A stretch of DNA of 64,000 nt, taken from Bifidobacterium eulemuris (GTDB lineage: Bacteria > Actinomycetota > Actinomycetes > Actinomycetales > Bifidobacteriaceae). Under the pieces are notes generated by a model. The model was given only the letters and a program-made list of their open reading frames with translations. It was not told the origin of the DNA and ran no database searches. Both the position numbers and the translations under genes were made by a program. Within the stretch, counting starts at the first letter, position 1; each line of letters starts with the position of its first letter. Positions 8,647 to 43,456 of this stretch are shown here, in pieces. The DNA lies in assembly GCF_014898155.1 (NCBI RefSeq), contig NZ_CP062938.1, positions 124,001 through 188,000 of the forward strand. Reading direction: 5' to 3'.

Positions 8647-8744
8647 GAGATCCCTCGACTTCGCTCGGGATGACGGAGCGAGTTGCTCGGGATGGCGGAG
8701 GGAGAGTGTGTTTTCCGTCATCCCGAGCGAAGTCGAGGGATCTC
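8647..8744. repeat. Dispersed palindromic repeat, inverted pair
   Basis: One copy of GAGATCCCTCGACTTCGCTC followed by GGGATGACGG (8647-8676) and its reverse complement (8717-8744) face each other across about 40 bases. The same unit occurs at eight or more other places in this window. The RNA would fold into a long hairpin upstream of the peroxiredoxin gene and downstream of nothing on the plus strand. The pair fills the gap between the peroxiredoxin gene and the amidohydrolase gene end. Confidence 0.8.
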
Positions 8745-41693: not shown

Positions 41694-41756
41694 GTTCCAC
41701 GAATGTGGGGTGCCTGACCGGCATGCGCTGGTTCAGGCACCTCGTCGTTTATGGAG

Positions 41757-41928
41757 GAGATTCCTCGACTGCGCTCGGAATGACGAGGGAGACTGTTTGC
41801 CCGGAGTGACGAGGGAGACTGTTTGCCCGGAGCGATGAGGGACTTCGCTCGGAATGACGATTTACTTCGCCGCCCGCCATCACAGGTGCGGTCCTCCTCG
41901 TCATTCCGAGCGAAGTCGAGGAATCTCA
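41757..41928. repeat. Dispersed palindromic repeat cluster
   Basis: A forward unit GAGATTCCTCGACTGCGCTC from 41757 (GGAATGACGAGGG follows), two short repeats of GGAGACTGTTTGCCCGGAG, another truncated forward unit, and a reversed unit ending GTCGAGGAATCTC at about 41928. It fills most of the 316-base gap between the YeiH gene and the small-peptide genes. Confidence 0.8.
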
Positions 41929-41955
41929 AGTGGCGCAATCGCGGTTTGGAATAGC

Positions 41956-41990
41956 AAAAAGCCCGCGTCCGTAATGATTCGGACGCGGGC
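41956..41990 (-). terminator. Terminator of the small-peptide operon
   Basis: On the minus strand, GCCCGCGTCCG, loop of 8, CGGACGCGGGC followed by TTTTT. It lies 20 bases after the stop codon of the second peptide gene. Confidence 0.93.
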
Positions 41991-42009
41991 TGGGAAGATT
42001 AAGCTAAGC

Positions 42010-42135
42010 TTACTTGCGCACGATGCCCTTGATGGCGTTCCAGGCGCTCACCGAGAGGGCGTAGTGGCCCAGGGACGGGTCGGAGGCGGCCAGCGGGGAG
42101 CGGAGGGCTTCGTTGATCAGGTTCTTGTTATCCAT
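42010..42135 (-). CDS. Small peptide, 41 residues, paralogue of the upstream gene
   Basis: The peptide begins MDNKNLINEALRSPLAASD, has DPSLGHYAL in the middle and ends WNAIKGIVRK. It is about 60 percent identical to the 40-residue peptide at 42201-42323 at matching positions. AAAGGA lies ten bases before the ATG, and a strong terminator follows at once, so expression is credible. It has no Cys, no double-Gly leader and no N-terminal hydrophobic signal. The last 15 residues could form a cationic amphipathic helix. I do not recognise the family. It could be a signalling peptide, a leaderless antimicrobial or a regulatory small protein. Confidence 0.75.
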   Translation of the reverse strand: MDNKNLINEALRSPLAASDPSLGHYALSVSAWNAIKGIVRK

Positions 42136-42200
42136 GGTTATGTCCTTTTCTTATCTAACGTTTTTTTTTAATTGATTATCGAGTCGGTATGCGGTGCGTC

Positions 42201-42323
42201 TTACTTGCGCACGATGCTCTTGACGGCGTTCCAGGAAGCCTGGGCCAGGGCGTAGGAGCCCAGCGAGGGATCCGTGGAAGCGAGGGGAGCGCGGAGCGCT
42301 TCGTTCATGATCTTGTTATCCAT
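42201..42323 (-). CDS. Small peptide, 40 residues, first gene of the pair
   Basis: The peptide begins MDNKIMNEALRAPLASTD, contains DPSLGSYAL and ends SWNAVKSIVRK. AAAGGAACC lies just before the ATG. The shared positions with the downstream paralogue are MDNK, NEALR.PLA, DPSLG.YAL and WNA.K.IVRK, and differences are mostly conservative, which indicates selection for protein sequence after duplication. The 65 bases between the two genes include a run of nine A. Transcription must start between 42330 and 42420, divergent from an AraC-type regulator. Function unknown. Confidence 0.75.
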   Translation of the reverse strand: MDNKIMNEALRAPLASTDPSLGSYALAQASWNAVKSIVRK

Positions 42324-42422
42324 GATGGTTCCTTTCCTCACTTGTTGTGTTTCCTTGTTCTGTTGACAATGATTACATTACGAGGGTTGAACGGGTTTCG
42401 CTAGCCATTTTCATCGCATTCT

Positions 42423-42431
42423 TGATATAAT
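42423..42431 (+). promoter_or_regulatory. Extended -10 promoter of the AraC-type gene
   Basis: TGATATAAT is a perfect extended -10 (TGnTATAAT), 70 bases before the regulator start. No good -35 is needed or seen. The intergenic region 42324-42502 also holds TTGACA at 42362 and must contain the divergent promoter for the peptide genes. Confidence 0.6.
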
Positions 42432-42502
42432 CATCGGGTAATCAGAGCGATTTACCTTTTGTTCACATGGTGTTGAGGTGATTGTCAGGAAAGGAGACGC
42501 GT

Positions 42503-43249
42503 ATGGCGGTTGTCGAAGAGGCGAAACTGCGGTATCTGGACTTCCTGAGCCGTGAGGACCGTGTGCGGCACCATCGTTACGTCGAGGAGATGAAGCAGTA
42601 CGATCTGATGAGGTCGGGCGACGGCGCGGCCATCGCCGAAAGCGTGAAGCTCTGGGATTCCGGGCTGTACGGCCATGTCTGCGACGATCCGTTGCGCAAT
42701 GCGAAATACCTGTTCGTCACCTCGATCACCCTCGCCACACGCTTCGCCATCGAAGGCGGCATGGACGAGGAGGACGCCTACAACGCGTCCGACCTGTACA
42801 TCCAGGACGTGGACCGCTGCGAAAGCGTCGCCGAGGTACGCCGCATGCATACCGATATGATGACGTTCTTCACATGGGCGATGGCCGACCTGCAGAAGGT
42901 CGACGTGCACTCCAAAGCGGTCGCCGAATGCATGGACTACATCCACTACCACCTGCACGAGCGGATCACCGTGGCGATGCTCGCGAACCACGTGCATCTC
43001 AACCCCACGTATCTTTCCGAGCTGTTCTCCAAGGAGACCGGCACGTCGATCTCGCAGTATGTGACCGACCGGCGTATGGAGGCCGCGGCGAATATGCTCA
43101 GATACTCGCAGTACTCGCTGGGGGAGATCGCGCAGATCCTCGCCTACAGTTCGCAAAGCCACTTCAGCAAGGTGTTCAAGAAGCAGATGGGCATGACTCC
43201 CGGCGACTACCGCAAGGCCAACGCGCAGACCGGCATCTGGCCGGAATAA
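42503..43249 (+). CDS. AraC-family transcriptional regulator
   Basis: A 248-residue regulator. The last 100 residues are the double helix-turn-helix of AraC: ITVAMLANHVHLNPTYLSEL and YSLGEIAQILAYSSQSHFSK, followed by FKKQMGMTPGDYRK. The N-terminal part is not the cupin arm but a helical domain with DDPLRNAKYLFVTSITLATR and GGMDEEDAYNASDLYI, a type seen in regulators of Firmicutes and Actinobacteria whose ligand is not known. The start at 42503 follows AAAGGAG. It is divergent from two small peptide genes and is likely to control them. Confidence 0.9.
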   Translation: MAVVEEAKLRYLDFLSREDRVRHHRYVEEMKQYDLMRSGDGAAIAESVKLWDSGLYGHVCDDPLRNAKYLFVTSITLATRFAIEGGMDEEDAYNASDLYIQDVDRCESVAEVRRMHTDMMTFFTWAMADLQKVDVHSKAVAECMDYIHYHLHERITVAMLANHVHLNPTYLSELFSKETGTSISQYVTDRRMEAAANMLRYSQYSLGEIAQILAYSSQSHFSKVFKKQMGMTPGDYRKANAQTGIWPE

Positions 43250-43262
43250 AGAGGATCGTGCT

Positions 43263-43456
43263 GAGATCCCTCGACTTCGCTCGGGATGACGGATGGTGGG
43301 TGTGTCGCTCGGAATGATGGGCGGTCTCTCGTCATTCCGACCGGAGTCGAGGAATCCCTGTGTGCGGTGCGACTGTCCGGGATGCCGATCGTGGGAGTGC
43401 TATTCGGAATGATGGGCGGTCTTTTCGTCATTCCGAGCGGAGTCGAGGAATCTCCA
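43263..43456. repeat. Dispersed palindromic repeat cluster, three units
   Basis: A forward unit GAGATCCCTCGACTTCGCTC at 43263 (GGGATGACGG follows), a reversed variant GTCATTCCGACCGGAGTCGA at 43331, and a reversed variant GTCATTCCGAGCGGAGTCGA at 43427, spaced by about 65-95 bases. The 408-base gap before the phosphatase gene holds nothing else I can identify apart from its ribosome site. Confidence 0.8.

Follow-up and report, generated by a model that had tools for sequence, protein, structure and literature searches.

What do two adjacent reading frames of about 40 codons encode that lie back to back with the gene for an AraC-type regulator in Bifidobacterium eulemuris, and what links them to this regulator? 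We addressed this question in a stretch of 64,000 nucleotides of contig NZ_CP062938.1 (positions 124,001 to 188,000; the whole stretch is called the window) and in related genomes. The best explanation, to which we assign a probability of about 0.7, is that the two frames are real small-protein genes, co-transcribed from one promoter, and that they belong to a dedicated, dispersed, Bifidobacterium-specific regulon of small peptides linked to the AraC-type protein. Bifidobacterium is a dominant and widely used gut genus, in which a hidden small-protein layer thus becomes testable; gut species carrying the system are B. kashiwanohense and B. ruminantium (regulator loci) and B. adolescentis (peptide record).

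Two Related Peptide Genes in One Transcription Unit

Peptide gene 1 (42010..42135, minus strand, stop included) encodes 41 amino acids (MDNKNLINEALRSPLAASDPSLGHYALSVSAWNAIKGIVRK) and peptide gene 2 (42201..42323, minus strand, stop included) encodes 40 (MDNKIMNEALRAPLASTDPSLGSYALAQASWNAVKSIVRK). They match the family profile described below with E-values of 4.7e-21 and 1.6e-23, respectively. Shine-Dalgarno sites (AGGAAAGGA, AAAAGGA) precede both genes, and an intrinsic terminator at 41955..41991 (minus strand), read from the sequence as a 12-bp perfect stem with an 8-nt loop and a T run, ends the common transcript. The two genes thus form one transcription unit divergent from the AraC-type gene, in line with the preliminary description of the locus, which had reported tandem, related peptides in this arrangement.

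Comparison of the two genes revealed 21 identical, 8 synonymously changed and 12 nonsynonymously changed codons, with 11, 3, and 14 differences at the first, second, and third codon positions. The codon adaptation value is 0.86 for gene 1 and 0.66 for gene 2. In a comparison built on our own simple gene calls, 21 genes of the ribosomal-operon region average 0.69 and 52 window genes 0.52. Among 40-codon slices of window genes, gene 1 ranks in the top 1.5% and gene 2 only in the top 25%.

The Peptide Family in Bifidobacterium

A profile built from 14 peptides found matches (E ≤ 0.01) in 26 of 112 Bifidobacterium genomes, far more conservation of the reading frames than chance would give; conservation in relatives had been proposed earlier as a check on the locus. 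Across 189 genomes of the family, the only matches outside the genus were three with E-values of 0.016–0.094, all in one other genus, which we take as chance. The peptides fall into three related subfamilies, A (the window type), B (MKNNTFNQIINANLASIDPGFGQFALAKAS...), and C (MQNNTFDQIANANTVSMDAGLSQFAFAKAS...). The change between the paralogues had been described as conservative at the protein level, and the same holds for the B subfamily, where 13 genes give 78 pairs and pN is smaller than pS in 74 of them (mean pN/pS 0.43). The peptides are therefore under coding constraint.

Searching 5.8 billion proteins with the profile returned 178 matches at E ≤ 10; among the 120 matches listed, the few named ones are called ‘hypothetical protein’ and come from Bifidobacterium where an organism is given. 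For representatives of the peptide classes A–F (D–F are introduced below), the best Pfam match was at chance level (0.042, to PHBC_N). Classes A, B, C, D, and F had no match in NCBIfam and a best value of 0.1 in PHROGs, class E having been scanned in Pfam only. As had been supposed from the sequence, these peptides of about 40 residues match no family in the libraries searched. In the open literature searched, judged by titles and the opening lines of abstracts, and in PMC11580447, no description of the peptides or of the regulon was found; subscription papers and preprints lie outside this scope, and a prior description is possible.

Two individual loci deserve mention. In genome G056, araC is flanked on both sides by a class A peptide gene, and each of the two has its own promoter block. 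The profile match at the end of contig G059:C54 (6123–6212) is an inverted copy of 101 bp that lacks a start codon and probably arose as an artefact of assembly.

A Regulator With a Predicted Helical N-Terminal Domain

The regulator gene extends on the plus strand from 42482 (TTG) or 42503 (ATG) to 43249. In Pfam, its product matches HTH_AraC with 87.4 bits (cut-off 26.6) and HTH_18 with 86.9 bits (cut-off 33.6). The structure model consists of six N-terminal helices, predicted to form the sensing domain, followed by the AraC DNA-binding domain (mean pLDDT 86, pTM 0.47). Among the best 50 of 124 PDB matches, no relative of the N-terminal domain alone was found, and the 18 matches at E ≤ 0.001 were read as AraC-type DNA-binding domains or whole AraC-type proteins. 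The all-helical model agrees with the earlier view that the sensing domain is not a cupin. YSIRK-adjacent regulators (TIGR04094) are linked to LPXTG surface proteins. The window regulator has the same HTH, and this model also covers its N-terminal region (residues 25–244); however, it scores 142.2 bits, below the curated cut-off of 200, and is linked to 40-amino-acid peptides instead of surface proteins.

Orthologues with 75–100% identity are present in 27 of the 112 Bifidobacterium genomes, a count that leaves out a 34% match in G047. Homologues with 51–59% identity are named from Ruminococcus torques, Butyrivibrio, Clostridium, Eubacterium, Lachnospiraceae, and one Muribaculaceae MAG. The regulator is therefore more widespread than the peptides, which were found only in Bifidobacterium. 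Five of 299 sampled Lachnospiraceae genomes carry the regulator at E ≤ 1e-60. At four of six Lachnospiraceae homologue loci, the divergent neighbour is an MFS permease gene (two loci), a ROK kinase gene or a GH5 gene; of the other two, one has an alpha-amylase gene about 3 kb away and one an ABC-F-type gene with an arabinose isomerase gene further off. Two of the plasmid homologues adjoin GH3 genes. None of the short reading frames near the Lachnospiraceae regulators was taken as a peptide of this kind, and a peptide system spanning phyla was rejected. The promoter block described below is likewise absent from Lachnospiraceae, where these homologues are 42–57% identical (best E 0.11). A phage origin was also rejected, as viral contigs gave no match and a phage collection only three records, the best of which (82% over 143 residues, on an 8.4-kb unverified faecal scaffold) we take as misfiled chromosome.

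Regulator and Peptide Are Inherited Together

All 26 genomes with a peptide match carry the regulator orthologue, compared to one of the 86 others (Fisher p 1e-24, relatedness ignored). This 27th regulator-bearing genome, G050, has no match to the peptide profile. To take relatedness into account, we used a tree of one gene, ychF, which had a match in 110 genomes; 90 of these were included, and none of the 20 others carries the regulator. On this tree, regulator presence needs eight changes, seven of them forced, and in seven independent pairs of genomes the peptide was concordant with the regulator in six to seven and discordant in none (sign test, p 0.016–0.031). Co-occurrence thus holds on the tree, although a shared ecological cause could also produce it. 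The divergent araC-peptide pair is found in only eight genomes and most peptide loci lie apart from the regulator, so that adjacency was rejected as the main evidence. The linkage of peptides to AraC that had been suspected from the neighbourhood stands mainly through co-occurrence and the common promoter block.

In G043, the gene that usually adjoins the regulator stands without it, and the syntenic B locus has neither peptide nor block. This genome is placed among regulator-bearing species, which would make a natural double loss possible. Because its flanking DNA is 68–93% identical to that of its supposed sisters, the placement in the tree is doubtful, and we give this case little weight.

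A Common Promoter Block With a Putative Tandem Operator

Peptide genes of subfamilies A, B, and C are preceded by a common block, whether or not they lie beside araC. It consists of TTCAAGATTAnCCGATGAATATACAAAAGAAnCGACGA..CGGCATGAC, about 20 nt, TATAnT, and then GAAGnCACAACAGAA; the copies in G063 and G064 are strongly diverged. In the window, the block, with operator, -10 element, and transcript start, occupies 42349..42444 on the minus strand (G000:C1:166349-166444) and scores E 5.8e-13 and 4.4e-12 with the promoter models R1 and R2, respectively, both of which had it in their training sets. The putative operator has an upstream half-site at 42431..42447 (minus strand; consensus TCAAGATTAnCCGATGA, from alignment A3 and PWM self-similarity at offset 20) and a downstream half-site at 42411..42426 (minus strand; consensus ACAAAAGAAnCGACGA, from alignment A3 and a PWM of the CCGATGAATATACAAAA core). 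This PWM, built from 34 promoters none of which lies beside araC, scores 18.9 at the downstream half-site, a value reached by none of 300 shuffles. The likely -10 element, TAATGT at 42375..42380 (minus strand), is aligned with the family's TATAnT in alignments A2 and A3.

The half-sites form a direct repeat at 20–21 bp, about two helical turns; CAA recurs at positions 4 and 25 of the consensus, and both half-sites match themselves best at offset 20. Such a spacing is typical of AraC proteins. We infer that the divergent AraC-type regulator binds these tandem half-sites, which lie just upstream of the promoter, most likely as an activator. The transcript start is also conserved and carries an AACAGAA element. 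The conserved TGAAGnCACAACAGAA at this start (window 42348–42380, A3 columns 76–91) resembles the operator's TGAATATACAAAAGAA, 59 columns upstream; among all 3081 column-window pairs, no self-match is better than this one (offset 59). The likeness suggests that the regulator may make contact at the start site as well; the element could serve the regulator as a third site or be an RNA element.

Upstream of araC itself, the PWM scores 13.7–25.7 in six of the eight genomes with the divergent pair and fails in G063 and G064. Among the 19 genomes with a non-adjacent araC, five (G053, G059, G006, G045, and G030) have an upstream site with scores of 8.8–18.6 (p ≤ 0.007) over a TATAAT that we take as the -10 element of araC; 13 have no such site on that strand, and G051 is borderline (p 0.05). 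These 13 genes without an upstream site would fit a different factor binding the block, with the AraC protein only co-inherited. We regard this as very unlikely, as presence and absence of regulator, peptide, and block match, the half-site spacing is that of AraC proteins, and the block lies between araC and the peptide gene in the divergent loci.

Some transcripts have particular leaders. Class D transcripts (L171, L173, L174, L177–L180) have a small hairpin of the GACGCA..TGCGTC type directly after the conserved start. B-class leaders are long (L053, L055, L083), with roughly 110–190 nt from the -10 element to the ATG, and RNA-level control through them is possible.

The Promoter Block Predicts Further Peptide Genes

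To search for further members of the regulon, we ran R1, a model of 29 promoters, over the 112 genomes. Its best match was at or below 7.2e-6 in every regulator-bearing genome, whereas the best value in a regulator-less genome was 0.005 (G016). At E < 1e-3, R1 found ten sites away from any profile-detected peptide: G064:C2:400076, G028:C1:1299818, G050:C38, G051:C4, G001:1028531, G059:C12, G009:C45, G037:C8, G019:1125128, and G020:1242279. Nine of the ten precede a ribosome site and a reading frame of 38–44 amino acids. The block therefore detects short genes that the peptide profile misses, namely classes D (MNKNKIFSAIKRGFEINGINTLSMAAGSPSVNKALQEMLDQR), E (G059), and F (G050 and G009). Class D forms a tandem pair in G028 and G051, and the C-terminus of class F, LIKRIVRK, is close to the VKSIVRK of the window peptides. 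Since the site in G050 precedes such a frame, the regulator-bearing genome without a profile match also has a peptide. The tenth site, at G064:C2:400075-400168 (minus strand; L170), is a confident, intact C-type block with no peptide behind it and probably represents a decayed locus.

Two orthologous sites, in G069:C1 (E 0.002) and at G040:1277165 (E 0.03), also precede frames of 38–44 amino acids, the latter ranking below several R1 matches that lack such a frame or were left uninspected. The weak matches in G016:C45 (E 0.005) and G056:C51 (E 0.007) were rejected because no peptide lies downstream, and so was the one in G053:C1 (E 0.035), which lies over the promoter of araC itself with no adjacent peptide. 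The inspected set did not extend to matches in G100, G058, and G101 (E 0.007–0.019) or weaker ones.

R2, a model of 41 promoters run on 40 genomes, found 54 sites below 1e-6, distributed over all 27 regulator genomes and absent from the 13 others, and 53 of these confident sites precede a peptide, the G064 site named above being the exception. At 47 of the first 50 sites audited, the first ATG frame with a ribosome site is 38–44 amino acids long. At two sites in G045, the peptides were located by the profile, and four further sites precede three profile peptides and one D peptide. As R2 was trained on most of the audited sites, this audit concerns the content of the regulon and not the sensitivity of the model. 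Most of the same genomes also supplied the training promoters of R1 and R2, and only the new sites, G050, and the genomes that lack the regulator are out of sample. The regulon would comprise one to five promoters per genome, nearly all of them leading to solitary or tandem peptides of 38–44 amino acids. A weak site at G111:C22:270499-270568 (minus strand; L222; E 0.003) precedes a gene whose product has maltose-acetyltransferase (Mac) and hexapeptide domains, which suggests that the regulon may hold other genes. The search used the whole block and could miss any target that has the operator alone.

The conserved transcript start with its AACAGAA element and the small 5' hairpins of the D-class transcripts could also be read as signs that the transcripts act as small RNAs and that the frames are incidental. 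Purifying selection at the protein level and the ribosome sites ahead of the frames at the sites audited first speak against this, which makes it the least probable of the explanations that we weighed. A known RNA element was likewise rejected, as no Rfam family reached the gathering score in window positions 41700–43300.

Genes Around the Peptide Loci

At 22 loci, the flanking genes, read from translated starts, include no common exporter, immunity or modification gene, and the window locus has no dedicated transport or immunity genes. According to Pfam, an orphan class A peptide gene in G010 has two ABC exporter genes some 310 nt upstream, and one such gene is found in G005 (regions L072 3859–8109 and L074 3935–8396). 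At one locus of G001, FtsX-like and ABC ATPase genes follow the peptide gene. These transporter genes favour export at the loci concerned. The other neighbours tested in Pfam are sugar permeases, a LacI regulator, a GH127 enzyme, and a thioredoxin-reductase-type protein.

Possible Functions of the Peptides

None of the 43 distinct peptides contains Cys or Gly-Gly, and the highest 19-residue hydropathy among them is 1.02. The absence of Cys, double-Gly or signal-like stretches, which the preliminary description had stated for the window pair, thus extends to the family. Only one of the 43 ends in a residue other than K or R, and the net charge is +1 to +4. D18, A25, and K35 are conserved. The peptide model, of modest confidence (pLDDT 74, pTM 0.33), has two helices (residues 2–16 and 19–39) with a hinge at the conserved D-P. 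The amphipathic moment over 11 residues exceeds that of 95% of shuffles in 9 of 16 representatives, most strongly in class F and G111; over 18 residues, this is the case in 3 of 16.

We infer that the helical domain of the regulator senses a small molecule, probably a carbohydrate-related one. The sugar-type neighbours of the Lachnospiraceae homologues, together with the structure and flank findings, favour a metabolite-sensing activator of small effectors. The leaderless, Cys-free, mildly cationic peptides would then be effectors of helix-hinge-helix shape, abundant to judge by codon adaptation, which act inside the producing cell by binding one specific partner, either a transporter or an enzyme; the conserved D18, A25, and K35 would fit such binding. 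This last step is the least certain of our reading and we prefer it tentatively, at less than even odds, to secretion or a role as regulator ligand. The 43-amino-acid SgrT works under SgrR in E. coli. The two systems are alike in a dedicated regulator that controls a protein of roughly 40 amino acids and in a plausible sugar link of the regulator; they differ in that the bifidobacterial system has several peptide classes and loci and a regulator of another family.

The peptide, or a fragment of it, might instead be the ligand of the AraC protein in a cell-density or self-sensing loop. Co-inheritance of the two, their divergent neighbourhood in eight genomes, the unusual helical sensing domain, and the half-sites over the TATAAT upstream of five non-adjacent araC genes are all compatible with such a loop. 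In RRNPP and Rgg-SHP signalling, a short peptide gene adjoins that of a helical-domain regulator. Some of our genomes show a similar arrangement, but the regulator here has an AraC HTH, the peptides show no signal sequence or processing site, and most are unlinked to the regulator. Moreover, one conserved regulator (75–100% identical in 27 genomes) faces several unlike peptide classes behind the same promoter, and the Lachnospiraceae homologues adjoin sugar-type genes, with neither such a promoter nor a recognizable peptide among the neighbouring short frames. These findings weaken the pheromone option, which we consider unlikely.

Secretion is a more serious competitor of the intracellular effector. 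The peptides could be leaderless, membrane-active products of the bacteriocin or phenol-soluble-modulin kind, coregulated from dispersed loci and exported by general or nearby transporters. Their lack of a leader and of Cys, the terminal K or R, the positive charge, and the 11-residue amphipathic segments would all suit such products, and so would several diverged copies per genome, in tandem in the window, G028, and G051, with codons of highly expressed genes. Because ABC transporter genes lie near the peptides of two lineages, the secreted reading gains and the effector step loses. However, no exporter or immunity gene recurs in the 22 loci, no match was found in Pfam, NCBIfam or PHROGs, few representatives are amphipathic over 18 residues, and the conservation of D, P, and A points to a specific interface. 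Overall, we judge secretion possible but, like the effector step, short of probable.

Leaderless (class IId) bacteriocins of the aureocin A53/lacticin Q type have no leader and a similar small size, occur as tandem paralogues, and are helical and cationic. The bifidobacterial peptides share these traits but have a weaker charge and no family match, and their 22 loci have no common ABC transporter or PH-domain gene. As leaderless bacteriocins fail on the associated genes and TIGR04094 on score, we file the system under no named family. Staphylococcal phenol-soluble modulins, several leaderless helical peptides encoded at scattered loci under AgrA, resemble it in this organization under one regulator. 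Here, however, the regulator is of the AraC type, no exporter is known, and most members appear amphipathic over short segments only.

A wider interpretation, which we regard as doubtful, is that one conserved metabolite-sensing AraC protein deploys diversifying leaderless peptides of nearly constant length (38–44 amino acids) but unlike sequence from scattered loci. If so, one peptide class would replace another behind an unchanging promoter, which would suit changing targets such as rival strains, phage or host factors, and the system would be a peptide-deployment system of a previously undescribed kind. Under our main explanation, removal of the single regulator gene should silence the peptides, which makes their function directly testable.

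Repeats in the Window

The sequence CATTCCGAGCGAAGTCGAGGAATC occurs in ten copies (up to three mismatches) on both strands of the window, at 8649–8742, 10202, 29017, 32244, 41759–41925, and 43265–43452, and in none of 100 shuffles. The copies look like a dispersed repeat family, and five of them sit in the gaps that flank the araC-peptide locus.
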